From a virus: a stretch of 21,943 bases of DNA. Both the position numbers and the translations under genes were made by a program. Of the stretch, positions 1,838-21,943 are shown in pieces. The notes beneath the pieces are model-generated. The model was not told the DNA's origin, did no database searches, and worked only from the letters and a program-made list of their open reading frames with translations. Location: the IMG/VR virus record IMGVR_UViG_3300017991_000417, positions 1 through 21,943 of that record, one strand, 5' to 3'. Within the stretch, counting starts at the first letter, position 1. Every line of letters begins with the position of its first letter.

Positions 1838-3181
1838 TTAAAATTCGACGTAAACAATCGTCGAGTAAATACCTTGTGTCTGGTTGTCGTCGTTTCGACG
1901 AGCCAGCCGGATAGTCTCAGTCCCACCAGCTTCCGCCAATTCGAGAGGCGGATCAATCGGCTGATACCATGTCGGCGACGCACCTGACGTGAACGCCACA
2001 TATTTTTGTACCAACGACGCAATGGGACCAAGAGAGAGCGTTCCCTTTGTCGCACCGGACGCCGTGATAACAAACCCAACAACACGAGCTGTTTTACTAG
2101 TGGTCACAGTAACATCGTGGTTATCAGTCGCATCCTTATTCACGTCCTGATCCCGATGACTATGGAACTCAATACCACTCGTGGTTCCACGAACAACTTG
2201 AACATACACGGGATTCAGTTCACTGTGAGCAACTCCACCAACTTGCGTGATGTTTATGGCAGCAGCACCGGCAGAGCTGATATCAAGTCGATTTGCGTCG
2301 CTTGCTCCAACAACCCTTATCAATAGTTTCCGGTCAAGCGTCATCCGAGGGGCACCGATGTCACCCTCATCGACAGAATCGGGTGCCGTCTCATCGGCAA
2401 TCGCACCCATCGGAAACACTTTATCCGTCGCAACAGTAAACGCTCCGTCATCGGCCTTAACATTTTTATCGTTGGTAAGGGCAGCCCCATCACTTCCGAT
2501 GTCAAGACGGTTTGCATCGTCCGCACCAACAACTCGGATCAGCAATTTGCGATCCAACGTCATCCTGGGCGTACCAATGTCTCCTTCATCAACAGAATCC
2601 GGCGCAGTTTCGTCAGCCAAAGCTCCCATCGGAATCACTTTGTCAGTTGCAACTCCAAAAGCCGCATCATCCACTTTGCCTTCCGCAGCATTGGCCGTTA
2701 TGTTTCCACTACTATCAATTTCAAGCCTGTTGGCATCGGTCGATCCAACAACTCGAATTAACAGTTTACGGTCAAGGGTCATTCTCGGAATCCCGATATC
2801 ACCCTCATCCACACTGTCAGGAGCCGTCTCATCAGCCATCGCACCAATAGCACCGACTTTATCAGTGCCAGGTACATACGCTGAATCGTCTGTATACGAG
2901 AACGGTATTGAAACAGAAGTGACGGTAATCAACTTCCCATTCTCATCTGTTAGCAACGGCGTTGCATCACCATCCGCATACGTTGTCGGCGTTGCTTCGT
3001 ATTTGCCGGATACCCTCAAACTTGTTGGGGTAGCACCATACGCACTGTCTACAACGGCGATGGATAATTCTTGTGAACCATCACCGAGTCCAATAAAAAG
3101 ACGATTGGCATTTGTGAAACCACGGTCGTTGGTTCCATCCCATATCCTTATCCGCTGTCCAGCTCTGAAATCAGTTCCCAT
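1838..3181 (-). CDS. Virion fibre/decoration protein with three 73-aa tandem repeats
   Basis: This 447-aa protein has a strong SD (GAGGAGG) and begins MGTDFRAGQR. Residues 1-97 form a beta-rich head. Three adjoining repeats of exactly 73 residues start at D98, D171 and D244. Each contains ADETAPDSVDEGDIG, one variable residue, then PRMTLDRKLLIRVVG. Residues 317-447 form a C-terminal beta domain ending in the strand STIVYVEF. Repeats of this D-x-A-F...GD.G..R.T.DR type occur in many tailed-phage structural proteins, often annotated as tail fibre or head fibre. There is no enzymatic motif. I infer an elongated surface protein, with the repeats as a shaft or as serial binding modules. Confidence 0.75.
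   Translation of the reverse strand: MGTDFRAGQRIRIWDGTNDRGFTNANRLFIGLGDGSQELSIAVVDSAYGATPTSLRVSGKYEATPTTYADGDATPLLTDENGKLITVTSVSIPFSYTDDSAYVPGTDKVGAIGAMADETAPDSVDEGDIGIPRMTLDRKLLIRVVGSTDANRLEIDSSGNITANAAEGKVDDAAFGVATDKVIPMGALADETAPDSVDEGDIGTPRMTLDRKLLIRVVGADDANRLDIGSDGAALTNDKNVKADDGAFTVATDKVFPMGAIADETAPDSVDEGDIGAPRMTLDRKLLIRVVGASDANRLDISSAGAAAINITQVGGVAHSELNPVYVQVVRGTTSGIEFHSHRDQDVNKDATDNHDVTVTTSKTARVVGFVITASGATKGTLSLGPIASLVQKYVAFTSGASPTWYQPIDPPLELAEAGGTETIRLARRNDDNQTQGIYSTIVYVEF
2234..2890 (-). repeat. Three tandem 219-bp coding repeats
   Basis: The repeat units are 2672-2890, 2453-2671 and 2234-2452, each encoding 73 residues. The central 31 residues are identical among copies except for one position (I, T or A), while the DNA has diverged at synonymous sites. 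In the 14-codon block for ADETAPDSVDEGDI, units 1 and 2 differ at 12 codons, units 2 and 3 at 10, and units 1 and 3 at 7. The unit ends are less conserved. Confidence 0.85.
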
Positions 3182-7294: not shown

Positions 7295-8596
7295 TTAGAG
7301 GACACGGGTGCGGAGGTTAATGGCTTTCACCAATGCGTTCTTGTTTTCGATCTGGGCATCCGTCCGGTTGAACACAACGGTCTCAACACGGTCAAAGTCC
7401 TTCTCGAATTCAGAGTGAACACGGGTTGCGTTTAAGATGGCCCAAATGAAGTTCTTAGGGTTGGCCAACCAAATGAACGTCCCTTCTGGGATGTTCTGGG
7501 TCGTACCAGCGTCGGAACCATTTGTCACCGCAGCCGTGAGACCGAGTGTGGTGTAAGCGTCATTGGCAACTGCCACAATTTCAACTTCCGCAGCGACCCC
7601 AGTGGTGGGAGACTTAAAGAGAATACGGCCCTCTCCATCGTCATAAGCCACACCAGCAAGGGACGGATCAGCAGCATTGATCTGTCCGGCAATTTCAAAC
7701 GCTTCGTACACACCAGGGGACAGAATGACAGCCACCGCACCAGCGTTGTTCACGTCGATGGTGATGGCATCATTTGTTCCGGCAACGATTTCAAACGGAC
7801 CTTGACGGGTTCCGAGAACAATTGCAGCGGTCGCAGCGTTCACTCCAACCAGCTTGTCGTCGGGAATCAAGGGGACTTCAACAACTGGATACCCAAACGG
7901 CATAGGCGGACGGCCCGAAAGGGACGCATCACCAGTAGCGGTTTGGCGGTCAGAGTTTAAGTCCATCCAGTCAACCATGGTTCCACGGCTGACAAAGAAT
8001 TTCAAGTTGGGGTCGTTACGGAATTGTTTTGGCATTTGCCGAAGCATGGCCGAAAACACCCGTTTGGACAGGTATCCACCTTGAACGTCAACGATGTGGG
8101 CGTCATCAGACAGTTTGTCCCATCCGTCGTTGGCTGAATACAGGTCACCTTTCGGCGTACCCGTGGAAGCAGCTTCATCACCATTGATGGCTAAATCTTC
8201 GAGGTCAGTCGAGATTTGGGCCATCATCGCTTCCATGACTTGATCTTCCATATTGTCACGGGCGATGTTTTCCTCAAGGGATTCTGTGGTGATGTGCCAA
8301 TCAGACCGAACCTTTTTGGTGTCGATCTGAACCTTATTGAATTTGGTGGGCTTCTCTTGGGTCGGCCCCGTGTTTTCAGGGGCTTTCTTCGTGACAGGCT
8401 CACCAATGTGCAACTTGTCGATATCCATGCGTGGATTGTCGAGACGCTCGTTGCGGACCAACGGGATCATTTTCGAGAACCGTCGGACTAAAACGAGGAA
8501 TTCGTCTTGCTGTTCAGGATTGAGTTTACCTCCATTCAGGAAAGCACTTGTCTCAATCGCACTCACAGCTTTTTCAATTAACTGATCGTTCTTCAT
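7295..8596 (-). CDS. Major capsid protein, HK97 fold, with inserted beta domain
   Basis: A 433-aa protein with SD TTAGGAGG. Residues 86-150 (KVQIDTKKVRSDWHITTESLEENI, read here as an N-arm/E-loop-like strand plus helix) and 195-250 (LKFFVSRGTM, GYPVVEVPLIP) follow the HK97-fold pattern, and residues 371-433 give the closing strands (FIWLANPKNF, RVETVVFNRTDAQI). Residues 253-370 interrupt the fold with an extra beta domain described separately. The first 60 residues could be a delta-like segment removed by the upstream protease, but no cleavage site can be assigned. It follows protease and scaffold as expected. Confidence 0.85.
   Translation of the reverse strand: MKNDQLIEKAVSAIETSAFLNGGKLNPEQQDEFLVLVRRFSKMIPLVRNERLDNPRMDIDKLHIGEPVTKKAPENTGPTQEKPTKFNKVQIDTKKVRSDWHITTESLEENIARDNMEDQVMEAMMAQISTDLEDLAINGDEAASTGTPKGDLYSANDGWDKLSDDAHIVDVQGGYLSKRVFSAMLRQMPKQFRNDPNLKFFVSRGTMVDWMDLNSDRQTATGDASLSGRPPMPFGYPVVEVPLIPDDKLVGVNAATAAIVLGTRQGPFEIVAGTNDAITIDVNNAGAVAVILSPGVYEAFEIAGQINAADPSLAGVAYDDGEGRILFKSPTTGVAAEVEIVAVANDAYTTLGLTAAVTNGSDAGTTQNIPEGTFIWLANPKNFIWAILNATRVHSEFEKDFDRVETVVFNRTDAQIENKNALVKAINLRTRVL
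7487..7840 (-). other. Inserted domain in the capsid protein, flagellin hook-IN-like pattern
   Basis: Residues 253-370 of the capsid protein. Residues 266-354 read G-P-F-E-I-x-A-G-T-N-D-x-I-T-I-D-V, then AVILSPGVYEAFEIAGQINA, RILFKSPTTG and TTLGLT. This order (strand, strand, helix with QINA, strand with SPTTG, LGLT) resembles the hook-IN/FliD-type repeat found in flagellar and many phage surface proteins. It would lie on the outer surface of the shell as an insertion domain. Assignment is by pattern only. Confidence 0.5.
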
Positions 8597-10564: not shown

Positions 10565-11706
10565 TTCATTACCTCCGCAAGCATCTCTTTTTCTACATCG
10601 AGTTCGTAAGCTCTTTCGAGTTTTACGCTCTCCTTGGTTGCCACCGTTGTTGTCCTACAATTTGCATGATAGGGGGGCAGCCACAAATCAAGTCTTTCCA
10701 ACTTCACCCTATCTGGCACTCTTGGCCGGTCATTTGGACTGAACCGTCCTGACCCACGCCTCGTTAACGTCGAATGGGGAAGGAAACTACGTTCCCCTCC
10801 CTTACTCGTGAACAGCGCACTGAGACCCCTCAATGCTCGGCCTGTGTCGATCCCGACCCATGGCCTCATGTCCTGCTGTTCCTCATATTCGTCATCCGTC
10901 GTCGGCTTACCCATTCCAACCAAATTTTCCATGTGCTTAAAAGCTGGCTCCGTCCTGAACACTTGACCGTCAAGGTATTGGCATATCGGCGTTGTCACCC
11001 CATCCATTACCGCTACGATCTCGTACCTCGTTACCTCTGCCTTTCGATAAGTGTTCAACTGGGCCATGCTCCTTGACGAATTTACGGACTGGTTCGCCAC
11101 AACATCCCAATAAGCTGGCGACCGATTCAACAATCTCGCACTCATCCTTTCTTCAAGTCGATCCGACAAGTCAACGGCTCCGAACCCTTCTTCCAGAGTC
11201 TCGTTCATTATGTAATCCAACTCTGGCTCCCATATCCGGCTGTAACTCGAATCGAGATACGAATGGGTGGTATTGTTAAGGGCGGTTATCAGCTCTTGAT
11301 CTACTGCGGTCAAGGATGAAATCCGCCCTACCTGCCGGCTCGTCAATTGCTCAGCTACCGTGTACATGTTTGAGATGGCGTCCAGAACATCATCCTGGAC
11401 TTCAACCGCCAGCTCGGTTCCGAGTATCCGACGTAACGTATTGTGAAAGACCCTTATCGCTTCTCTATTGAAGCGTGGCCCAGACGAAGTAAGGTCAACT
11501 CCCTTATCTACCAACTTCTCAATCGCTGGACCCAAATTTGTTCCGACTCTTGCGCTGAACGCTCGAACCAGAGGCTTTACTATGTTTTGCTCGAACGGGA
11601 CTGGATCATCAACCCTTTTTTCCACAAGACCACATTTGCACATGGTGTCATGGAGCATCTTCGACGCAACTGGAAAAATATCCAACTCATTTATTTTGAT
11701 GTCCAT
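10561..11706 (-). CDS. Head morphogenesis protein (Mu gpF / SPP1 gp7-like minor capsid)
   Basis: A 381-aa protein following the portal gene and overlapping its 3' end by 20 bases, the normal order for this family. The N-terminal two thirds are mostly helical. The central part contains AEVTRYEIVAVMDGVTTPICQYLDGQVF, given here in pieces as RYEIVAVMDGVTTPICQ and LDGQVF, matching the D...T...C..LDG motif of the family. Residues 344-356 read PPYHANCRTTTVA, the usual PPxHxNCRS/T ending. These proteins bind portal or DNA inside the procapsid. The insert around GGERSFLPHSTL is unusual. The SD is weak, suggesting coupling to portal translation. Confidence 0.85.
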   Translation of the reverse strand: MDIKINELDIFPVASKMLHDTMCKCGLVEKRVDDPVPFEQNIVKPLVRAFSARVGTNLGPAIEKLVDKGVDLTSSGPRFNREAIRVFHNTLRRILGTELAVEVQDDVLDAISNMYTVAEQLTSRQVGRISSLTAVDQELITALNNTTHSYLDSSYSRIWEPELDYIMNETLEEGFGAVDLSDRLEERMSARLLNRSPAYWDVVANQSVNSSRSMAQLNTYRKAEVTRYEIVAVMDGVTTPICQYLDGQVFRTEPAFKHMENLVGMGKPTTDDEYEEQQDMRPWVGIDTGRALRGLSALFTSKGGERSFLPHSTLTRRGSGRFSPNDRPRVPDRVKLERLDLWLPPYHANCRTTTVATKESVKLERAYELDVEKEMLAEVMK

Positions 11707-13318
11707 TTGTTCCCGTCAAATTTAATTTGAGCAGCCCTTTTGCATCACCCTTTTCAACAAGGGCATTGACCGCATCGTTTAATTTCATCAGGTCATCGAC
11801 AATCCGTTTGCCCATGTTATTAGCTGAATCGTTTTGCGCCTGGTTATTGGCATCGGCAATCATACCCTGCTGCATTTCGAGAAGGGCAATCTGCAACGGT
11901 TTATCGGCCCACTCGGTCTCGAACGGCTCAAACCCTTCAAAACCTAAGTTAGTCAGCAGTTTCCTTACATCATTCGGAGTAATACCGCCAGACTTTGTGA
12001 GTTTTTCAAACGTACCGACATCACCTTCCTCGGTGGTCGTTCGTGGACGCTTAAATTGAAGCCTTGCATTGGTGATTCCCATTCCGGCAACGAGCGTATG
12101 GTTCAGCGTGTACTCTTTATCGAGCGCATCTGGATTGAACTCTTGCTCGACCGTGATGGCCCGACCTACAACGGCTCCGGCCTTGTTAATCCCCTCGGTG
12201 TTAAAGAACGACTTGTCGAGTCCGAACGCTTCACGGACTTCCTCATCATTCATCTCACGGTATTTCTGGAAGCTGGCATCGTCCGTTTCACCCACGGTCA
12301 TCTTGTCAATTTTGATCTGGACATCCTCACTTTTTGCTACTCCCATTTGCTTACGCTGAGGTTGAAGGATCATAACTCGATGGGCGTTCTTGACTCCCTT
12401 CCCCTGCTGCTCAAAAAATTTCTTCAACTGATCCAACGACTCCGGCGTCAGGCGACCACCTGTCACGGTTATCGCAACTCTCGGCACACAATCGTTCTCA
12501 AAGAAAACAGCGTTCCTCTCGGCAGCCAATCGTGATCCGGCAATAGCAGGGGCCGTCGCCACATGACGTGGGACTCCATAATAGGATGAACGTGGGGAAT
12601 AGATCATGAACTGGATCAGTTCACTGGCTCGGAACTTGACTGGAAGGAATTGACCTGGCTTCTCTGGCTGAAATACTTTACCTGTCCGGTTATCTATGAT
12701 TCTCCTATCACCGAACTTCTTGAAATAACGCTTCTTACCGCCTCGAATTTGGATGAACCCATCCCCTGATTTAAGAATTCGGATGGTATGGGACGAAACA
12801 TGGTAAAGACCACCAACTTCGCCGGCTGCGTTCCTGGCTACTTCAAGGTATCCGTTCCCTGTGGCTTCCTCATCAATTTTCACCAGCTCCATGACTTTGG
12901 TGAACGGCATATCAGCGTTCGGTTTATCAAGCAACTTTTCGAGTTTTGCCTTGTCAGCATCATACGCCTGCTGCAACTCGTCACGCTTTTGACGTTCTTC
13001 TTCGGACAAATCTTCGTCTTTGGCATTAAGGATAGTTTCAACATCGGCCCAGGGAATGATGTCCCATCCGAGTCCGACGGTATTGCGAGCGTAGGTTCTT
13101 ACAGCTCGACCGAGGCGTGTGTTTATTTCGAGGGCAGCAGCCCAAAAACGTAAATCAACGGGTGGCTTAACAATATCCTCACCCATTGATGCAAATTGTT
13201 TTTCGTCATCCGTCAGTTGACGGGACTCGATGTTTCCACCACCGAGGACGATAGCTTTAACTGTCGCTTCCGCTTTCGTGTACTCGTCGTCGAAACTTGG
13301 CTTCTTCGCTCTTGGCAT
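11687..13318 (-). CDS. Portal protein
   Basis: A 543-aa protein with SD AAGGTGG. It forms the dodecameric channel at one capsid vertex through which DNA enters and leaves. The pattern of PBSX/HK97-group portals is visible: wing part with RLGRAVRTYARNTVGLGW (residues 69-85), GNGYLEV at 154-160, a SSHTIRI strand, YYGVPRHVATAPAI near residue 250, then AERNAVFFENDCVPRVAI, and a stem/clip-like helix region rich in LPxxxxQ-type residues. The C-terminal 90 residues form a charged helix. Length is normal. A 54-codon ORF overlaps its 5' end by 62 bases. Confidence 0.88.
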   Translation of the reverse strand: MPRAKKPSFDDEYTKAEATVKAIVLGGGNIESRQLTDDEKQFASMGEDIVKPPVDLRFWAAALEINTRLGRAVRTYARNTVGLGWDIIPWADVETILNAKDEDLSEEERQKRDELQQAYDADKAKLEKLLDKPNADMPFTKVMELVKIDEEATGNGYLEVARNAAGEVGGLYHVSSHTIRILKSGDGFIQIRGGKKRYFKKFGDRRIIDNRTGKVFQPEKPGQFLPVKFRASELIQFMIYSPRSSYYGVPRHVATAPAIAGSRLAAERNAVFFENDCVPRVAITVTGGRLTPESLDQLKKFFEQQGKGVKNAHRVMILQPQRKQMGVAKSEDVQIKIDKMTVGETDDASFQKYREMNDEEVREAFGLDKSFFNTEGINKAGAVVGRAITVEQEFNPDALDKEYTLNHTLVAGMGITNARLQFKRPRTTTEEGDVGTFEKLTKSGGITPNDVRKLLTNLGFEGFEPFETEWADKPLQIALLEMQQGMIADANNQAQNDSANNMGKRIVDDLMKLNDAVNALVEKGDAKGLLKLNLTGTNGHQNK

Positions 13319-14852: not shown

Positions 14853-15336
14853 CCTCATCCTCGTCACCGATTCCACAGACCATTTCCTCAATCGTTTTCA
14901 ATCCAGTTGGCGTCGTGTTTCCCTTTGGTACGCATATTCCGGCTTGAACTCCTTTTGTCATCGAGATCGTTCTGAACGTTCCACTCTTACATTTGCCTGG
15001 GGGGAACTGGCGGAACCGCCATGTGTTCTCCGTAGTGTCCACTTTCTTGTCAACGAACCCATGATCCTTTACCCACTTACGAGCGTCGGCCAACGTGTCG
15101 AATACACGTTTAAGTAGGATGAGCGTTTGGACCTTGGTTTGTTTCAGGAATTCTTCTTTGAGGATATCGGTGGCGAGTTGGTTATGGCAGGAACGACAAA
15201 AATGTGAGCCTTTCCGAAATTGATGCGTGACGATGATACCTTCTGCATAGCAGCAATCATCGGGTTGTTTCTCATAGACTATTGAAAGCCTTGCTCTATT
15301 CCACTTCAAGAGGAGGTCAAGAGTGGCCTGCTCCAT
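14839..15336 (-). CDS. Phage protein with Cys-rich N-terminus and RFRQ domain
   Basis: First gene after the promoter at 15431-15459. The ATG at 15336 follows GGAGG. It has 165 residues. Residues 28-50 contain C28-C29 and C47-x2-C50 (CCYAEG, HFCRSCHNQL), probably a metal site. Residues 82-135 contain LADARKWVKDHGF, TENTWRFRQ and GTFRTISMTKGVQAGI. This A-x-x-W-x-x-x-H-G-F...T-E-N...RFRQ pattern is familiar from phage proteins located by portal and protease genes, with no settled function. The tail is short and acidic. In-frame upstream methionines lack an SD. Confidence 0.65.
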   Translation of the reverse strand: MEQATLDLLLKWNRARLSIVYEKQPDDCCYAEGIIVTHQFRKGSHFCRSCHNQLATDILKEEFLKQTKVQTLILLKRVFDTLADARKWVKDHGFVDKKVDTTENTWRFRQFPPGKCKSGTFRTISMTKGVQAGICVPKGNTTPTGLKTIEEMVCGIGDEDEDGGV

Positions 15337-15352
15337 ACAACCTCCAAAACGA

Positions 15353-15388
15353 AAAGCTGTCATGCCCAAGCAGATGCACAGCAGCCTT
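15353..15388 (-). promoter_or_regulatory. Leader hairpin before the head operon
   Basis: On the transcript, AAGGCTGCTGTGC (15388-15376) pairs with GCATGACAGCTTT (15365-15353): 12 of 13 positions pair if G-U is allowed, with a 10-base loop. It ends about 7 bases before the SD of the first gene and is followed by TTTTCGTTTT. It could be an attenuator, a processing site or an mRNA-protecting 5' structure. Confidence 0.5.
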
Positions 15389-15430
15389 CAAGATTTCGAT
15401 TCAACAGGACCTTCGGTCACGCTCACGGAA

Positions 15431-15459
15431 AATCTACCACCCTTAATTCCGTTTGTCAA
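15431..15459 (-). promoter_or_regulatory. Sigma70-type promoter of the head module
   Basis: On the minus strand TTGACA (15459-15454) is a perfect -35 box. TAGATT (15436-15431) lies after a 17-base spacer and matches four of six bases of TATAAT. Transcription would begin near 15424, giving a leader of about 88 bases to the ATG at 15336. It sits in the largest intergenic gap of the window, directly before the pre-portal and head genes. Confidence 0.75.
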
Positions 15460-15468
15460 CGAATGATT

Positions 15469-15702
15469 TTATTTTTCCGCTGGTTTTGAAAAGTACATGC
15501 ACTTGTCCTCATCCAGTCGAGGGCAGTTAAAGATCAACCCTGTTTTCGTCATCTCGGCCAAAAGCCTTTTCTTGACATGCGACGTAATAGCCACCCACAA
15601 CGCCCTTTCGTATTCGTTCTTAGGGTCGGCCCCGTCCGACAACTCCAAAAGGATTCGGTCAATCAACTCACCAAGCTGTCTCGAACCGGACAATTCAGGC
15701 AT
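15469..15702 (-). CDS. Small unknown protein, end of the accessory operon
   Basis: A 77-aa protein. The ATG at 15702 shares a base with the upstream TGA (TGATG), which I prefer to an in-frame GTG at 15714. It begins MPELSGSRQLGELIDRILLE, is mainly helical in its first 55 residues, and has two cysteines near the end (NCPRLDEDKC), perhaps part of a metal site. No family is recognised. The promoter of the head module follows within 10 bases of its stop, and there is no clear terminator between them. Confidence 0.6.
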   Translation of the reverse strand: MPELSGSRQLGELIDRILLELSDGADPKNEYERALWVAITSHVKKRLLAEMTKTGLIFNCPRLDEDKCMYFSKPAEK

Positions 15703-15785
15703 CAGTATTTCCACATTTCAGTCACGATCCATCTCAAAAGGAAATACAGCCCGATCAAGATTAAACCGCCAACTATCCACCACAT
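15702..15785 (-). CDS. 27-aa single-span membrane microprotein
   Basis: An ATG at 15785-15783 shares a base with the stop of the nuclease gene (TAATG), and its TGA at 15704-15702 shares a base with the ATG of the next gene (TGATG). The peptide is MWWIVGGLILIGLYFLLRW followed by IVTEMWKY: one hydrophobic helix of about 20 residues, Trp at both membrane interfaces, and a short charged tail. It fits exactly between its two neighbours, and GGCGGA precedes it as a modest SD. A role in lysis, membrane anchoring or modulation of a partner is possible; none can be shown. Confidence 0.6.
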   Translation of the reverse strand: MWWIVGGLILIGLYFLLRWIVTEMWKY

Positions 15786-16111
15786 TAGTAATCCGCCAAC
15801 CTTGCCAGCCCGACACCGAGCAGCGTTTGATTTAGTGAAACGTCATCATAGAACACCTCAGCCAGATAGCGACCGTATTTTCCCGTCTTATCCTTATGGG
15901 TTTTCACAATGACTTCACGATCCAAAACTTTTTCTTCAACAAATCTCTTGGCTTTCATTCCGGCTTCGTACTCCTCACCTCTTAACTCCGGCGTGTCGAT
16001 TCCGAAAAGCCTCAACCGAATATCAAAATAAATCTTGAAGCCGAGATCGACTCGGACATCAATTGTATCTCCGTCCACAACATGCGTTACTTTCGCACGG
16101 TATTCGTACAT
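15785..16111 (-). CDS. Staphylococcal-nuclease-fold (TNase-like) nuclease
   Basis: A 108-aa protein from the ATG at 16111, behind GTAGGAGGG; earlier in-frame methionines lack an SD. It is a minimal SNase OB-fold. The active-site motifs are all present: VVDGDTIDV (residues 11-19), RLFGIDTPE (34-42, with Arg34, Asp39 and Glu42 corresponding to R35, D40 and E43 of the Staphylococcus enzyme), and KYGRYLAEV with Arg81 corresponding to R87. It should cleave phosphodiester bonds with Ca2+. There is no signal peptide, so it acts in the cytoplasm. A role in host DNA breakdown or DNA processing is possible. Confidence 0.88.
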   Translation of the reverse strand: MYEYRAKVTHVVDGDTIDVRVDLGFKIYFDIRLRLFGIDTPELRGEEYEAGMKAKRFVEEKVLDREVIVKTHKDKTGKYGRYLAEVFYDDVSLNQTLLGVGLARLADY

Positions 16112-16119
16112 TAACCCTC

Positions 16120-17121
16120 CTACCGGTTGAGCGCATGGATCAGGCATCCCTTAGCCACAGACTGCAATGGTTCTTCCGCCAACCGAATCTGTTTGACCTC
16201 AATAGGAAGTCGAACAGATTTAAAAACATCCTCGAATACGTCTCGAAATCCACCGGCTAATGCAGTACCGCCGGCCAGAACAATCGAGATCGGGGACTCA
16301 AACTCCGGCACTTGCTTCTCACTGACCAGTTTGTTGGCAATCGTTTTCAACGTCCCCTCAATCAGTTCCCTGGTATAAATCGCAAGGGCCTGCTCCTCTC
16401 TGGTTTTCGGTTCAATCAGGTTCACTCCTCGCTCTTTAATCCGTGTCATCCTGGTTTGCTCATTACCTGTCACCATCGCTGCTTCATGGTCGATCCAGTC
16501 ACCCCCCCTGGCTGTCGAAAACGTTACCGCAGGAATGGACCGGTAGGACACGCAAACGTTAAACATCCCCCCACCGCATGATATTCCTATCCCCGTGAAA
16601 TCATCCTCGATCAACTCGGACATGATTACCGCATGGCCTTCCATGATCGGTTTCGGGTCGTAACCGAGACTCAACAGAACTCCCTCGAAAATCTTTTTGT
16701 GGTAGGCCACGTTCATTGGTGAGTCAATCGGATTGGCTGGTACTGAATAAACGACTGGTTCGTTTGACGACCTGGGGTTTCCAAGCAACTTCTTAATCAT
16801 CAACTTGATGATCGGCAAAGCGTCAATATCATCCGGCGAAATCATCCCGTTCCGCATCGGACGCCTGGTCGATTTCTTCAAAACATTTGCCAACTCGAAC
16901 GCCGAATCTCCCATCACGAACATTCGACCCTCGTACTTGGCATACTGGACTTTGAGGCTTGTCAACGCCTTCTGCTGCCACTCATCATTGTCCACTTCGA
17001 TAAACGCATTACGTTGCATCTGAATCTGGGTTTTGTTTCCAACTGTCCTTGCACATAGCAAATTGGCTGTTCCGATATCGAGGCCAGCTCCACCCTTTGA
17101 CTCTTTCTTTTCTTCGCTCAT
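16120..17121 (-). CDS. Actin-like ATPase (MreB/ParM class) encoded by the phage
   Basis: A 333-aa protein overlapping the previous gene by ATGA. It shows the actin/HSP70 fold motifs in order: phosphate-1 LDIGTANLL (residues 14-22), a conserved E-x-H-A-V region at about 161-165, phosphate-2 GIGISCGGGMFNV (177-189), RGGDWIDHEAA (205-215), adenosine motif VLAGGTALAGGF (281-292), and connect-2 SVAKGC (321-326). The length matches MreB and ParM. Such proteins bind ATP and form filaments that position DNA or organise the cell. No MreC/D genes are nearby, so a phage segregation or positioning role is more likely than wall synthesis. It has no N-terminal membrane helix. Confidence 0.8.
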   Translation of the reverse strand: MSEEKKESKGGAGLDIGTANLLCARTVGNKTQIQMQRNAFIEVDNDEWQQKALTSLKVQYAKYEGRMFVMGDSAFELANVLKKSTRRPMRNGMISPDDIDALPIIKLMIKKLLGNPRSSNEPVVYSVPANPIDSPMNVAYHKKIFEGVLLSLGYDPKPIMEGHAVIMSELIEDDFTGIGISCGGGMFNVCVSYRSIPAVTFSTARGGDWIDHEAAMVTGNEQTRMTRIKERGVNLIEPKTREEQALAIYTRELIEGTLKTIANKLVSEKQVPEFESPISIVLAGGTALAGGFRDVFEDVFKSVRLPIEVKQIRLAEEPLQSVAKGCLIHALNR

Positions 17122-17363
17122 GATTTCCTCCCGAATTTCTTAATGTGCATCTCGGCCTCACCTTCTTTTAACGGTCTCCAATCGAAAAACCCGTTCATAT
17201 TCTCCCGACCTTCACCACACGGCCCTTTGAAGTGAGGCCACATAAAATCTGTCCACCGGTCTCCGAACAATTGGGACTCCGCACCACAAACTTTGCACAC
17301 CACAATGTCCTTTGGGTGTCTCGGTATCGGTGCGGATAAATCAATTCGTTTCCTGGCTGCCAT
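17118..17363 (-). CDS. Small Cys-rich protein next to the actin-like gene
   Basis: An 81-aa protein, ATG at 17363, ending in ATGA overlap with the actin-like gene, so the two are probably co-translated. It has a basic start, CKVC at residues 23-26, H44 and C49 (WPHFKGPCGEG), and ends FGRKS. The C-x2-C...H...C set suggests one zinc ion. Tight coupling suggests a working partner of the actin-like protein, for example a small DNA- or protein-binding adaptor, but no ParR-type ribbon-helix-helix is visible. No family is recognised. Confidence 0.6.
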   Translation of the reverse strand: MAARKRIDLSAPIPRHPKDIVVCKVCGAESQLFGDRWTDFMWPHFKGPCGEGRENMNGFFDWRPLKEGEAEMHIKKFGRKS

Positions 17364-17378
17364 TCGATTAACTCAACT

Positions 17379-18101
17379 TTACTTCCCCTTGTAAATCAAA
17401 TCGTCAACTATCTCGACCTCTTTGTCCCAGGCACCGAGAATGTACAGCCATCGACCAAACGGAGAATTGGCCAACAGGATCGGGTCTTTCCGATCTTCCT
17501 TACCACCGTCATCAACAATCAATTGAAGGTCTGGCTCATCATCACGGCAATCCTCATAAAGATCGACAAACGCTTCCAACTCATCCAACGCCTCTGTCGG
17601 GACCGTCTTATAAAACGAGCTGAAACTCACACACTTCACCTTGTATTTCTCACACAACTTATCGACCATGGCCTTGGTCGTCATGGCCCACCGAAACTTG
17701 TGACCGATTTTGAGGTATTGCTTCCTGGCCTTCAAATAAGTCAACGCCTCGATCTCATCACTTGGCCTGATTCCCCTCTTTTCCAAAACCTTGATCCGAC
17801 GCTTCACAATCTTGATCTGCTCGTCCAATCCGTTCAACATAATAGATGGCTTGGCAACTACTATGTCATTAACAAGCTCGACGGGTTTCTTCTCCTCTCG
17901 CTCCTTAACGTTCTCAACGTTACCCCCACTCCATCCTTGGGTCGGCGCAAAATTCGTTGTTACTGAGTTCGTTCCCTCATATCCCCAGTTTGATACATGG
18001 ATCACCTGCTGATTTTGTTGCGCCGTTTCGATACCCGAAACAAAAGCCCGACGGTTTTTCTTCCGCAGGCTCCTTATTACTTTCCTGAGTTTTCTGAACA
18101 T
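17379..18101 (-). CDS. Conserved phage protein, unknown, basic N-terminus
   Basis: A 240-aa protein. The ATG at 18101 is preferred because GAGGTGA lies 6 bases before it. Residues 1-20 are strongly basic (MFRKLRKVIRSLRKKNRR). Residues 25-75 are low complexity. Residues 95-135 form a helical coil (DEQIKIVKRRIKVLEKRG). The C-terminal domain contains FRWAMTTKAMVDKL, and ends RKDPILLANSPFGRWLYILG followed by AWDKEVEIVDDL. I recall the DPILLA.SPFG...LGAWDKEV block from other phage proteins without assigned function. Neighbour of the Cys-rich and actin-like genes. DNA binding by the basic end is possible. Confidence 0.6.
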   Translation of the reverse strand: MFRKLRKVIRSLRKKNRRAFVSGIETAQQNQQVIHVSNWGYEGTNSVTTNFAPTQGWSGGNVENVKEREEKKPVELVNDIVVAKPSIMLNGLDEQIKIVKRRIKVLEKRGIRPSDEIEALTYLKARKQYLKIGHKFRWAMTTKAMVDKLCEKYKVKCVSFSSFYKTVPTEALDELEAFVDLYEDCRDDEPDLQLIVDDGGKEDRKDPILLANSPFGRWLYILGAWDKEVEIVDDLIYKGK

Positions 18102-18111
18102 TCCGTTCACC

Positions 18112-18173
18112 TCATGTATATTTTTCTCGGTCTTTTAGACATATCGACAAAACATGTTTACGAAATCGACATA
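18112..18173 (-). promoter_or_regulatory. Short gap with repeated GATATGTC and a palindrome
   Basis: This 62-base gap before the gene at 18101 contains GATATGTC twice in direct order and an aaacatgttt palindrome between them. No promoter boxes at acceptable spacing were found. It could be an operator or partition-type site; the number of repeats is small, so the call is tentative. Confidence 0.3.
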
Positions 18174-18419
18174 TCACCTGAATTCGTCCCCGAAACTCTT
18201 GGGGTTCCCACCGTAGAGTCTCTCCCGTTCGATCCGTTTTATGTCATCCTCAAACTCAAGAAACTCATCTGAAACAATGATGGACCCGATCTCGGTATGT
18301 CCCTCATCCTCTTTGCCGAGCGTCCGTTTCAAATCACGGACTAGGCCCATGCTGATCTTTCCGTACAAAACGACGGCTTTTGCAAACAATTCGGTCAAAC
18401 TTGGTGGTATATCTCTCAT
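18174..18419 (-). CDS. Small acidic helical protein, unknown
   Basis: An 81-aa protein starting at the ATG that overlaps the previous stop (ATGA). It has a helical first half (SLTELFAKAVVLYGKISMGL), a short acidic loop (GKEDEGHTEIG) and a second helix rich in charged residues (EFEDDIKRIERERLYGG). No cysteines and no membrane segment. No family is recognised. It is tightly packed in the accessory operon, so co-expression with its neighbours is likely. Confidence 0.55.
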   Translation of the reverse strand: MRDIPPSLTELFAKAVVLYGKISMGLVRDLKRTLGKEDEGHTEIGSIIVSDEFLEFEDDIKRIERERLYGGNPKSFGDEFR

Positions 18420-18604
18420 TCTGTTCCTTCCCGTCCGGCGGTTACTCCGTTCGACAAATGCTGGTCAACAATTTGTTCAAGATTCTTAACAAACCCTGAT
18501 TTCGTTTGCCGATCCATTGACTTCAACTCACGCCGGAACGACTTTCGTCCCATCAAAACTTCAAGCATTTCCTCAACAATCACTTCCGCTGTCGATGAAC
18601 TCAT
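18416..18604 (-). CDS. Small helical protein, unknown
   Basis: A 62-aa protein with ATGA overlaps at both ends. It begins MSSSTAEVIVEEMLEVLMGR and continues with basic helices (KSFRRELKSMDRQTK, FVKNLEQIVDQHL). It is probably all alpha. No motif is recognised. Confidence 0.5.
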   Translation of the reverse strand: MSSSTAEVIVEEMLEVLMGRKSFRRELKSMDRQTKSGFVKNLEQIVDQHLSNGVTAGREGTE

Positions 18605-18849
18605 ACGTTCTCCGTCATTCCTAAGAATTTAAGGTGACACTTTTTGCACTCAACCTGAATGATATTCACCCAGAACGCAAAGGTATCACCACCCTGCAAA
18701 TCGACTTGCTGCTGCTGGATCATTTTCCAGTCATGCTTACAATCGACTTGACTCTCAGTTAAGGCTAGGACTCGACCCTGGACGTTCATCCGAACATCCC
18801 TCTTTCTGCGGTCGGCCATGCGTCGCTCTAAACGCCTTTTCTCCTGCAT
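18601..18849 (-). CDS. Basic protein with Cys/His metal-site pattern
   Basis: About 82 residues from the ATG at 18849, with GGGAG upstream; an in-frame TTG at 18855 is an alternative. The first 20 residues are very basic (MQEKRRLERRMADRRKRDVR). The rest has C37-x-H39, then C68-x2-C71-H72 (DCKHDW, ECKKCHLKF), arranged like a small zinc ribbon with a strand-rich middle. The 5' third overlaps the end of the upstream membrane-protein gene by about 95 bases in another frame. RNA or DNA binding is plausible from the basic tail and zinc pattern. Confidence 0.55.
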   Translation of the reverse strand: MQEKRRLERRMADRRKRDVRMNVQGRVLALTESQVDCKHDWKMIQQQQVDLQGGDTFAFWVNIIQVECKKCHLKFLGMTENV

Positions 18850-19192
18850 TTTCAAATAACTCCCTGTGTTTATTTATCGTTTCGATAATCTGCATCCTTT
18901 TCACAAGCGCATAGTTCAAAACTTTGATGATCCTTTCCTGTTTTCTATGCTCCTCATCAACACCAAGCCAGGTCATCAATTTGTCTCCCCCATAAAACGA
19001 GACCAGGACGGAGATCAGCAAGAACACCGAAACATCCATCTCAGCCGACTCAAAAATCATCCCAGTTACACGCCCGACTGCAAGATTGAAGGTAACCAGA
19101 AAAGCAAAAACCGTCAGGACATACCAAATGATCCTGACGTTCACCCACTTCTCAATCCTATTCACTTTGTCGAGCATATAATCTGGGGTCAC
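18755..19192 (-). CDS. Membrane protein with two helices, holin-like
   Basis: A 145-aa protein with a GTG start in a GTGA overlap. TM1 lies at about residues 21-39 and TM2 at 54-69, followed by a long charged cytoplasmic segment (EEHRKQERIIKVLNYALVKR). Residues about 115-145 overlap the next gene and look poorly conserved. Two membrane helices and a charged tail fit a class II holin or an accessory membrane protein. No endolysin gene was found nearby, so this is tentative. Confidence 0.55.
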   Translation of the reverse strand: MTPDYMLDKVNRIEKWVNVRIIWYVLTVFAFLVTFNLAVGRVTGMIFESAEMDVSVFLLISVLVSFYGGDKLMTWLGVDEEHRKQERIIKVLNYALVKRMQIIETINKHRELFENAGEKAFRATHGRPQKEGCSDERPGSSPSLN

Positions 19193-19374
19193 AATTTTGT
19201 TTCCGCCAAGTATTTGATGACTCCGAGAACCTTCAACAACCAGATCACAAGGGACCCCGTGATGACAATATTCAGAATGTTTTTGATCTTCACATTCATT
19301 GGGACCAAAGAGTTAATCATCCATTGGACGATAAACACGATTGCCACTACAATCAGGACATTCAACAGACTCAT
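19189..19374 (-). CDS. Thivi_2564-like small membrane protein
   Basis: A 61-aa protein with two membrane helices, about residues 4-22 and 33-52, joined by a short loop (VPMNVKIKNI). It resembles the Thivi_2564 family: MSLLNVLIVV at the start, an N.ylPM-like VPM turn, KNILN and IWLLKVLGV. Family members are small bacterial membrane proteins and appear also in phages. The ATG shares a base with the upstream TAA. A holin role is possible because of its size and the membrane-protein gene that follows. Confidence 0.65.
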   Translation of the reverse strand: MSLLNVLIVVAIVFIVQWMINSLVPMNVKIKNILNIVITGSLVIWLLKVLGVIKYLAETKL

Positions 19375-19838
19375 TACCCACCTCTCAGTTTTTTGAGTCG
19401 CTCCAACGCTCCACCAACTCCGTCTCCCTCTACCTTCTTGGTTCCTACTTGTTCGAGGTTCGACTCAATTTCGATTTTAGACATCAAACTCGATAGGTTT
19501 CCACGGAACGACTCCATCGTTTTTATCTCCGTATCCGGCAGCCGTCCGGCAGCTACAAGACCCTTTACCATTTCCATCATGGAGTCCATCTTATCAGACA
19601 GCAATTGCGAAGCGTCCTTACCGATATCGGTGGTGACCAGCGTCGTCACCTTGTCAATTTCCTGTCTGGTCAATTCCTGTTTACGTTCGGACAGGACTTT
19701 ATCAATCGCTTCCTGAACAAATTTGGTGATCGCTCCCTTCGTTACAACTCGGACTTTCTTGATTCCTTGTCTCTGCAATTCCTGGACAGACGTTTCCTTC
19801 GACGCCTGCTCAACTATTTTTTCTGCGTCGTTTTCCAA
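19374..19838 (-). CDS. Coiled-coil protein, unknown
   Basis: A 154-aa protein. I chose the TTG at 19838, which has AAAGGTGAT ahead. It is nearly all charged helix (SVQELQRQGIKKVRVV, LSERKQELTRQEI, MMEMVKGLVAAGRL), ending in a Gly-rich tail (GDGVGGALERLKKL). No catalytic motif or membrane segment. It overlaps both neighbours. No family is recognised; an oligomerising structural or regulatory role is possible. Confidence 0.55.
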   Translation of the reverse strand: MENDAEKIVEQASKETSVQELQRQGIKKVRVVTKGAITKFVQEAIDKVLSERKQELTRQEIDKVTTLVTTDIGKDASQLLSDKMDSMMEMVKGLVAAGRLPDTEIKTMESFRGNLSSLMSKIEIESNLEQVGTKKVEGDGVGGALERLKKLRGG

Positions 19839-20034
19839 TGTCTATCACCTTTATTTTCATACGGACTTTCTGGCCATCGAACGGAGAGAGTTTTTTTAAA
19901 TCGAGAGGTGCGCCTTTATCATCGAGGATTCCGAGGTAGAACGACTGCTGGGGGGCGAACAATCGCAACGTTCCTTCGAGCGTTGCGTATGCGGTTAGGT
20001 ATGGGTTCTTTTTATTGTGATTTAATTTTGTCAT
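19810..20034 (-). CDS. Small unknown protein
   Basis: A 74-aa protein, ATG at 20034 after GGTGAT, overlapping the previous gene by 23 bases. It has a basic Asn/Lys start, an alternating strand region (LEGTLRLFAPQQSFYLGI, LDDKGAPLDL) and a C-terminal KVRMKIKVIDIG strand, so it looks like a small beta barrel. No family is recognised. Confidence 0.55.
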   Translation of the reverse strand: MTKLNHNKKNPYLTAYATLEGTLRLFAPQQSFYLGILDDKGAPLDLKKLSPFDGQKVRMKIKVIDIGKRRRKNS

Positions 20035-20491
20035 CCACTATCACCAACGGTTCGGCCTGCCCCGTTTCGGGTTCAATTTCCTCAACTGTCGGATAAGACT
20101 TTCCTATTTTATGGAGTACCGTTCCTACGCCGGCACCCAAGAACAAAATTGCAAGGAACCCAAGACCGACTGTCATGGCTATTGCGTTCATGGCTCGTTC
20201 TGGTTCTTTCTCTAAGGGAGAATCAGCGACCCTGGGTTCCTCGACCACTACCTGCCTAATGGCAGGAGCAGAATTGATTTCTTTTTGCGACAACTTCTTT
20301 ACCGGAGCTTCCTCTTGGATCATCGTTACTTCCGGCTTGACCTGAATGTCCGATACCGCTGCCTGTCTATAAGGTGGTGTCGGCAACGTACCGCACCCCA
20401 TGACGAGGAAAAGTAGTGGAGCAGCCCACAGGCTCCTCCTCATCGTCCTTTTCGACTCGACAATTCTTACAGACTGATTGCCCACCTTCAT
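20012..20491 (-). CDS. Candidate u-spanin: lipoprotein with C-terminal membrane helix
   Basis: A 159-aa protein with a strong SD (AGAAAGGAG) before the ATG at 20491. After a basic start, residues 20-33 form a signal peptide with lipobox V-M-G-C33. A 67-residue soluble segment follows, then a membrane helix at about 101-126 (AMNAIAMTVG, FLAILFLGAG) and a 33-residue polar tail. Lipid anchor at the N-terminus plus a C-terminal inner-membrane helix is the topology of a unimolecular spanin such as T1 gp11, which joins outer and inner membrane at lysis. T1 gp11 is about 130 residues. Here the tail after the helix is longer, so another envelope role remains possible. Met at -2 of the lipobox is unusual. 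Confidence 0.6.
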   Translation of the reverse strand: MKVGNQSVRIVESKRTMRRSLWAAPLLFLVMGCGTLPTPPYRQAAVSDIQVKPEVTMIQEEAPVKKLSQKEINSAPAIRQVVVEEPRVADSPLEKEPERAMNAIAMTVGLGFLAILFLGAGVGTVLHKIGKSYPTVEEIEPETGQAEPLVIVDDKIKSQ

Positions 20492-20594
20492 CGGTGAACT
20501 CCTTTCTACATATCCGGCACTTTCGTTTCGGATTACGGTCTCGAACCTTCCGGCCCTGGTATCTCTGGCTGTTGCGGTTCTTCGTCTTTTCCAT
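20367..20594 (-). CDS. Small zinc-ribbon-like protein overlapping the lipoprotein gene
   Basis: A 75-aa ORF starting behind GGTGG. Residues 1-25 are very basic (MEKTKNRNSQRYQGRKVRDR). C26-x2-C29 and C42-x2-C45 (CRIC, CKNC) form a compact zinc-ribbon pattern. From about residue 35 on it overlaps the lipoprotein gene in another frame for 125 bases, and the last 25 residues look like a by-product of that frame. It also overlaps the end of the upstream gene. Nucleic-acid binding is a reasonable guess. Confidence 0.5.
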   Translation of the reverse strand: MEKTKNRNSQRYQGRKVRDRNPKRKCRICRKEFTDEGGQSVCKNCRVEKDDEEEPVGCSTTFPRHGVRYVADTTL

Positions 20595-21075
20595 TTGGAC
20601 TCACCACCTGTAATGGGACTTGATTCGGTTTCGGCTCAGGAATAACAACTTTCACTCCTGGCCTTACTTCTTGCGCTTCTTGGCTTTGGCCACTTTCTTT
20701 TTCTTGGCTCTCTTTCCCATTTCCAGATACCTCCTTTTGTTTGGCCTGTTCTTCGGCCTTCTTTTTGGCTTCCTCGGCCCGACGTTTAGCGGCGTCCTCG
20801 GTTTCCTTCCATATCTTCACAAACTCATCGTCCAACTCTTTCTTAGTGAACGGCTTTATGTATTCTACGCCAAGGCGTTTTGACGTGTTTCGGTGTAGCA
20901 CGTTTGCAATGGCCTCGATCATGACATGGGTGGACAACGCCATCCGCTTGAGATTCTCGATACTGTCAACAACCCTGGCCATCTCTTGCGCCATTCCAAC
21001 GGCTAAACGCTCCCGTTGTTGGCGTTCCCTTTGGACTGCTTTGTTGATCTCTGCTATGACTGCTCCATCCCTCAT
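20533..21075 (-). CDS. Coiled-coil protein with Pro-rich tail
   Basis: A 180-aa protein. The ATG at 21075 has AGGAGG before it, whereas an in-frame ATG further upstream lies inside the previous gene. Residues 1-60 are a helical coil with MAQEMARVVDSIENLKRM. Residues 85-125 are a charged helix with KRRAEEAKKKAEEQAK. The tail from about residue 126 is Gln/Pro/Glu-rich and disordered (PEPKPNQVPLQVV). No family is recognised. A structural or scaffolding role is possible. Confidence 0.6.
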   Translation of the reverse strand: MRDGAVIAEINKAVQRERQQRERLAVGMAQEMARVVDSIENLKRMALSTHVMIEAIANVLHRNTSKRLGVEYIKPFTKKELDDEFVKIWKETEDAAKRRAEEAKKKAEEQAKQKEVSGNGKESQEKESGQSQEAQEVRPGVKVVIPEPKPNQVPLQVVSPNGKDEEPQQPEIPGPEGSRP

Positions 21076-21085
21076 GCCTTGCCTC

Positions 21086-21694
21086 CTAATAACGAACTCG
21101 TTTTTCTTTGTGAAGATTACCGTCTTTGTCACGCCAATACTTACCAAAAAGTTTCCTGACCCCGTTGGCCAATGGATTTTTCTTTCGCCGAATCCGGCAG
21201 ACCTTGTTAATTGTCTCGATCAAGTAACCGTCAATGGCAAGGTGCGGATTAATTAACTCATGACGTTCCCACATATAATCTATGATCTCACACCACTGAT
21301 TAATAATTGAATCACGGGCCTTATAGTACCGACTTATCTGAATGTCGATCTGACGCTCAATCGTTTCCTTGAGGTACCAATAGATTTTTGACTTCCTCAT
21401 TGGAGCTGTCATGCCCATCTCTTTTTTCTCGTACTCATCAATTTCCATCCCTTCATGCTCACGCTTAAAGACCTGCCTGATCTTATACGCTGTCAGGAAG
21501 TCAATGGGATTGTCTTTATGGTAGTACGCACATAACCACTGATACATTTTCTTATGACGCCTTACGAACGCTGGATCGAGCAACCACAGATAATCGAAAA
21601 TGTTGTCTATGATATCCAGCCCCATGTAATCTTCTTCTTTCGTTAATCGTTTCGTTTGCTCTAACCATTCCATCAATGAATTGCGTTGGCTCAC
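21086..21694 (-). CDS. Unknown aromatic-rich protein
   Basis: A 202-aa protein with a GTG start (TAGTG overlap with the lipoprotein stop) and SD GAGGGAG. It is rich in Trp, Tyr and charged residues (WLLDPAFVRRHKKMYQWL, IINQWCEIIDYMWERHEL), predicted mostly helical. The end is basic (RIRRKKNPLANGVRKLFGKY). No motif of a known enzyme is visible. Its helical, basic, aromatic build would suit a DNA- or RNA-binding protein. No family is recognised. Confidence 0.6.
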   Translation of the reverse strand: MSQRNSLMEWLEQTKRLTKEEDYMGLDIIDNIFDYLWLLDPAFVRRHKKMYQWLCAYYHKDNPIDFLTAYKIRQVFKREHEGMEIDEYEKKEMGMTAPMRKSKIYWYLKETIERQIDIQISRYYKARDSIINQWCEIIDYMWERHELINPHLAIDGYLIETINKVCRIRRKKNPLANGVRKLFGKYWRDKDGNLHKEKRVRY

Positions 21695-21825
21695 TATTCA
21701 TCTCCCTCGATCTCCTGGCCGTATCCTTTAACATGGTTAGAACACCCAACGGCAAAAGAAGCAAATAAAAAACCCGTGCAAACCACACAGACCCTCTGCA
21801 CAGTTCGGACAGGACTCAAGATCAT
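21694..21825 (-). CDS. Entericidin-like small lipoprotein
   Basis: About 43 residues from the ATG at 21825. A signal region (VCVVCTGFLFASFAVGC) with lipobox A-V-G-C28 leads to a 16-residue mature part, C-S-N-H-V-K-G-Y-G-Q-E-I-E-G-D-E. This resembles the entericidin motif C-x-N-T-x-[KR]-G-x-G-x-D-I of the EcnA/EcnB lipoproteins. There is no SD at this ATG, so the start could be further downstream or upstream. It lies in another frame over the end of the zinc-ribbon-like ORF, and its stop overlaps the next start. It could act in lysis or envelope stress. Confidence is moderate because the match rests on a short motif. Confidence 0.45.
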   Translation of the reverse strand: MILSPVRTVQRVCVVCTGFLFASFAVGCSNHVKGYGQEIEGDE

Positions 21826-21934
21826 CGTCGCAATGGTGGAATTCACCCCTATCAACGTGAACATCGGACGATGGATTCTTGTGGTTTCCATTTTTATTCG
21901 GCTTCCTCTTGTCGATCACGATAGTTTCTTTCAT
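21737..21934 (-). CDS. Small Cys/His-rich zinc-ribbon-like ORF
   Basis: A 65-aa ORF at the right edge; the upstream region lies outside the window, so the start is provisional. The first 30 residues are Asn/Lys-rich and hydrophilic. It then has C42-x2-C45 (CPNC), C50, H53 and C58-x2-C61, which could be a zinc ribbon. Its last 29 codons overlap the entericidin-like lipoprotein in another frame. One of the two frames could be a by-product of the other. Confidence 0.45.
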   Translation of the reverse strand: MKETIVIDKRKPNKNGNHKNPSSDVHVDRGEFHHCDDDLESCPNCAEGLCGLHGFFICFFCRWVF

Positions 21935-21943
21935 ATTGTTTAC

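Follow-up and report, generated by a model that had tools for sequence, protein, structure and literature searches.

We found that a tailed phage encodes a volactin, a member of the actin-like family of haloarchaeal HVO_2015, together with a homologue of the gene that adjoins volactin in planctomycetes. The DNA analysed (the window; 21,943 nucleotides of the IMG/VR virus record IMGVR_UViG_3300017991_000417) carries on its minus strand an uninterrupted 333-codon ORF at positions 16120-17121. The Pfam Volactin profile (PF25216) matched this ORF with an E-value of 3e-91 and 306.7 bits (cut-off 35) over 319 of the 333 residues (residues 12-330; profile positions 3-321 of 321), a match that excludes chance. 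Family, fold, ancestry and the host-partner homologue with its conserved tail were computed here, and we consider it fairly likely that volactin and adaptor constitute a cytoskeletal module of two genes that came from a host of planctomycete type, with the filament tethered by the adaptor tail.

The sequence-only reading had called the protein a phage-encoded actin-like ATPase, which our results uphold as to the fold, and had proposed MreB, ParM and AlpC as its comparison set. The protein is a volactin and not MreB, ParM or AlpC. Pfam MreB_Mbl scored barely above its cut-off (29.2 versus 27 bits, E 5e-7), against 306.7 bits for Volactin, and the protein fell short of the NCBIfam cut-offs for MreB (26.5 versus 293 bits and 24.1 versus 365.75) and MamK (19.6 versus 400 bits). 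No HSP70 family was among its Pfam matches, its 333 amino acids correspond to a single actin-like domain, and no mreC or mreD was found among the scanned ORFs of the incomplete 21.9-kb fragment.

AlphaFold run on a 68-sequence alignment returned a full actin fold (pLDDT 92.2, pTM 0.90); a run on the single sequence reached a pLDDT of 35, and the alignment-based model was used instead. The nearest solved fold was that of MamK (Z 28.8, rmsd 2.9 over 292 residues), followed by BeeR (27.3) and MreB (about 27), with matches spanning nearly the whole chain. Four of the five actin motifs that had been claimed from the sequence are present, namely phosphate-1 (G13-LDIGTANL), connect-1 (the invariant E161), connect-2 (318-PLQSVAKG) and adenosine (284-GGTALAGGF). 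The fifth, phosphate-2 (178-GISCGGGMFN), departs from the pattern in that S181 and N188 replace acidic residues of MamK and MreB (Asp and Asp in MamK). In all aligned volactins, haloarchaeal ones included, S181 never varies and N188 hardly does, and we therefore regard the missing acidic residues as a family trait rather than decay. Nor do we read the motif as a dead site, because HVO_2015 forms dynamic filaments (PMC10869688). With both acidic residues absent, nucleotide turnover may differ. Of the 47 columns with a conservation of 95% or more among 67 other sequences, the window volactin retains 46, which suggests that it is functional. Lack of an actin fold, clustering with HSP70-like enzymes and a degenerate ATP site, the outcomes named beforehand as speaking against the assignment, were not found.

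To our knowledge phage actins are thought to be rare, and the sequence-only reading had likewise called actin-like genes uncommon in phages. An alignment scan told otherwise: it retrieved volactin relatives in at least 415 viral contigs, many of them longer than 200 kb, and in at least 381 genome contigs (lower bounds, from pattern scans), while a single-protein scan of viral contigs returned none. Two huge phages, of 485 kb and 595 kb, encode volactin as well, as do four plasmid records from haloarchaea, and one jumbo virus record (IMGVR_UViG_3300025141_000016) has two volactin loci (L038 and L046). The nearest cellular relatives of the window volactin belong to Planctomycetota, with identities of up to 57%, and to Omnitrophota, and 81 of 196 sampled planctomycete genomes (about 40%) exceed the Pfam Volactin cut-off. 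In the literature searched (preprints and most subscription journals lay outside its scope) volactin was known only from haloarchaea, the volactin papers examined did not tie it to phages or Planctomycetota, and the huge- and jumbo-phage papers examined mention tubulin and no actin. Our findings thus point to volactin and partner pairs as a widespread actin system that is apparently undescribed in this literature.

In the tree the window volactin joins the sequences of Planctomycetota and Omnitrophota with 99/95 support, separate from the main viral clade (100/100). Forcing it into that clade was rejected (AU p 0.0185), as was a grouping with all viral rows (p 0.034), the groups for both tests having been picked after inspection of a first tree. 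Given this placement, the window volactin was probably taken from a planctomycete- or Omnitrophota-type host, and the simplest reading is that viruses acquired volactin at least twice. The terminal branch of the window volactin is long (1.12), so that none of the sampled genomes was the source of a recent capture. We infer the host solely from volactin and its adaptor; the capsid gene gives no indication of Planctomycetota and is uninformative in this respect, with matches in 12 of 392 planctomycete genomes, the best at 31% identity over about half of the protein.

The contig is that of a tailed phage, as it carries a portal protein (11687-13318; PF04860 E 2e-27, phrog_12 E 3e-42), a Mu-F-like head protein and a major capsid protein (7295-8596; about 35% identity to Streptomyces phage major capsid proteins), all of which come after volactin on the same minus strand. 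A second, independent contig of this virus (IMGVR_UViG_3300018080_000725) has genes 99-100% identical to those of the window as far as about 15.7 kb and ends before volactin, so that the link between volactin and phage rests on one assembly. Gene overlaps on both sides of volactin argue against a chimera. At the 5' end, the tight coupling to a gene for an 81-aa Cys-containing protein (17118-17363, minus), proposed from the sequence, is confirmed by an ATGA overlap at 17118-17121; at the 3' end, the start of an ORF for a staphylococcal-nuclease-like phage endonuclease (15785-16147, minus; PF00565 E 2.7e-12, phrog_452 E 6e-36) overlaps volactin at 16120-16147. The 81-aa protein matched no Pfam family above cut-off, and the same gene run includes a 243-aa protein (17379-18110, minus). 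These two genes and the nuclease gene had been named from the sequence as sharing an operon with volactin, the 243-aa protein being described as basic and of 240 aa, but the important neighbour proved to be a 154-aa gene further upstream.

This partner, or adaptor, gene (19374-19838) lies upstream of volactin on the same strand, at a distance of 2.25 kb; in hosts the two are adjacent. Its family was found by clustering the neighbour genes of volactin loci. An HMM of the cellular partners found the family at 66 of 80 cellular loci, for the most part directly upstream of volactin, and matched the window gene with an E-value of 6.4e-19. In a random even draw of planctomycete genomes, a partner was found within 2.5 kb upstream in at least 49 of the 81 that bear volactin. 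The window partner keeps the N-terminal part and the tail of host adaptors, without their long coiled middle. A PDB sequence search with the partner profile returned generic coiled coils only, and a DNA-binding domain of the ribbon-helix-helix type found in ParR, considered because of the strand-helix pattern of the N-terminus, had no profile support. In Omnitrophota a relative of the partner is placed after the second of two tandem volactins, an arrangement seen at all eight loci (L111, L114, L118, L128, L130, L136, L137 and L139); those second copies that are in the tree form a clade of their own. One planctomycete clade is partner-less, and there the volactin frame is about 340-540 codons longer at the N-terminus, the extension being mostly acidic and of low complexity (loci L129, L135, L140, L142, L145 and L148, and further L151, L152, L156, L158, L161 and L162). 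A fused partner was considered for this clade and rejected, as the extension has no match to the partner profile.

Of 80 viral loci, 77 have a gene of a different family upstream of volactin, in most cases immediately next to it. The cellular and jumbo-phage partner families align only over their last 32 columns (hhalign E 2.4e-5), which hold a C-terminal motif common to jumbo-phage and planctomycete partners and proposed here as a volactin-binding tail. In the window partner the motif reads IESNLEQVGTKKVEGDGVGGALERLKKLRGG (19374-19469, minus strand) and includes a predicted amphipathic helix, GVGGALERLKKLR. The protein was matched by the C-terminal HMMs of both cellular (6e-10) and jumbo-phage (1e-3) partners, and none of 5000 shuffles reached the score of its tail. 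A search of 5,367 cellular ORFs, 66 of them partners, with the jumbo-phage tail HMM placed volactin partners at all of the top 30 ranks; in the reverse search of 9,966 viral ORFs with the cellular tail HMM, partners made up 10 of the best 10 and 17 of the best 20 matches. The tail motif is thus shared by partner families that otherwise show no alignment.

The haloarchaeal gene directly upstream of volactin encodes a DUF7139 membrane protein (L004 4917-5825 and L005 4971-5894). The plasmid records with a tblastn match to DUF7139 are precisely the four that carry volactin, and a profile search found DUF7139 in H. volcanii too. Its tail has motif-like stretches, e.g. GVDQQVAGLKGLKGG, whose scores with the jumbo-phage tail HMM were reached by 0 of 5000 shuffles, with full-search E-values of only 0.03-0.12 and just two distinct loci in the comparison. 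The motif therefore appears, weakly, to recur in haloarchaeal DUF7139.

By analogy to HVO_2015, whose dynamic filaments are attached to the membrane at their tips (PMC10869688), the phage volactin would bind nucleotide and polymerise into a dynamic filament. The C-terminal amphipathic helix of the adaptor may then bind volactin, the likeliest site being the groove between subdomains IA and IIA. In crenactin, the C-terminal helix of arcadin-2 binds a hydrophobic groove, and ParR binds ParM at the same place (PMC5173319). Because a short C-terminal helix is conserved on otherwise different volactin neighbours, the same groove-binding logic is suggested here. The N-terminal domain of the adaptor, a homologue of the N-terminal domain in host adaptors, would tie the filament to a cellular site or cargo, and filament and adaptor together might place replicating phage DNA or assembling particles, or displace host volactin. 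In haloarchaea, the membrane domain of DUF7139 could in the same way bring the tips of HVO_2015 filaments into contact with the membrane.

The host-like character of the pair could also be read as host interference, in which the phage volactin or the short adaptor co-assembles with or caps host filaments, thereby putting the host cytoskeleton out of action or redirecting it. The nearest relatives are host-type cellular proteins with up to 57% identity, and an adaptor with both ends and without the long middle is what a dominant-negative form might look like. We nevertheless think this unlikely, since a simple poison would not need the adaptor that is retained alongside the filament protein, and nothing indicates volactin in the host of the window phage.

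In the jumbo phages, the genomic setting raises the idea that volactin serves virion morphogenesis, assisting in the construction or mounting of heads or tails, or being itself a virion component. In the main jumbo-phage clade volactin is found within a conserved block whose order is a 455-aa protein, a gp10-like protein, the partner (usually directly upstream of volactin at the 77 of 80 viral loci), volactin, a 372-aa-type protein, a zinc-ribbon protein and a long tail-sheath-like protein; volactin stands just before the long protein, which matches tail sheath in several records. The block corresponds to L002 12433-22965 and to parts of most of L006-L085, and its members in L002 had no PHROG matches. 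PF17482 was found in the long protein in four of 20 jumbo records, two of them above cut-off. Terminase_6N was missing in 19 of the 20, and phrog_2 gave terminase-like matches in 14, strong in about seven, on which basis we take the jumbo records as phages, less surely for those without such a match. In the window, 2.8 kb separate volactin from the portal gene downstream of it. Against a role in morphogenesis, the window volactin falls within the cellular clade rather than the jumbo clade and has a host-type partner, and in a distant relative whose capsid is 43% identical the 6 kb upstream of portal contain no volactin; for the window phage we regard this role as doubtful. Segregation of an extrachromosomal phage genome in the manner of ParM or AlpC is highly improbable, and the plasmid-like maintenance suggested from the sequence alone is unsupported: an actin-like fold with a companion gene is found in CGP3 AlpAC as well (PMC4446434), but no centromere-like repeat array was found in 15000-21943 of the incomplete fragment, no plasmid maintenance gene was recognised, and the PHROG 'partition protein' match had an E-value of only 0.007.

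The preferred reading, a host-derived filament with a tethering adaptor, has counterparts among known systems. With haloarchaeal volactin the window protein shares full-length homology (39-41% identity to haloarchaeal members), the actin fold and the unusual phosphate-2 motif; it differs in being encoded by a tailed phage, in its planctomycete-type lineage and in having a soluble partner rather than a DUF7139 membrane protein. Prophage CGP3 also pairs a phage actin-like protein, AlpC, with a co-encoded adaptor, AlpA, which binds DNA repeats upstream of the operon (PMC4446434), whereas AlpC belongs to a different actin family and no such array was seen in the window. Crenactin and arcadin-2 resemble the pair in combining an actin with a gene close by whose product ends in a conserved helix preceded by a variable linker, although crenactin too is from another actin family and arcadin-2 depolymerises it (PMC5173319). 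PhuZ of jumbo phages is likewise a phage cytoskeleton that could place cargo, with a tubulin rather than an actin fold, and our results suggest that jumbo phages may hold an actin counterpart of PhuZ.

More tentatively, volactin could be a single widespread actin system of archaea, Planctomycetota and Omnitrophota, and hundreds of jumbo phages, in which a filament is paired with a neighbouring tether whose conserved volactin-binding C-terminal helix is carried on differing cargo domains (a membrane domain in haloarchaea, one associated with tails in jumbo phages, a host-type adaptor in the window phage). Phages would have acquired it more than once and would use it as an intracellular cytoskeleton. 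The shared tail motif offers a handle on how volactin filaments are anchored at the membrane by their tips.

Elsewhere in the window, there was little behind the proposal that volactin lies next to a head-gene promoter, with 15 promoter-like sites found and 9.5 expected by chance. No Rfam RNA or tRNA was detected in the window. At 1838-3181, a 447-aa protein carries three near-repeats of DETAPDSVDEGDIGxPRMTLDRKLLIRVVG and is a possible fibre or decoration protein.
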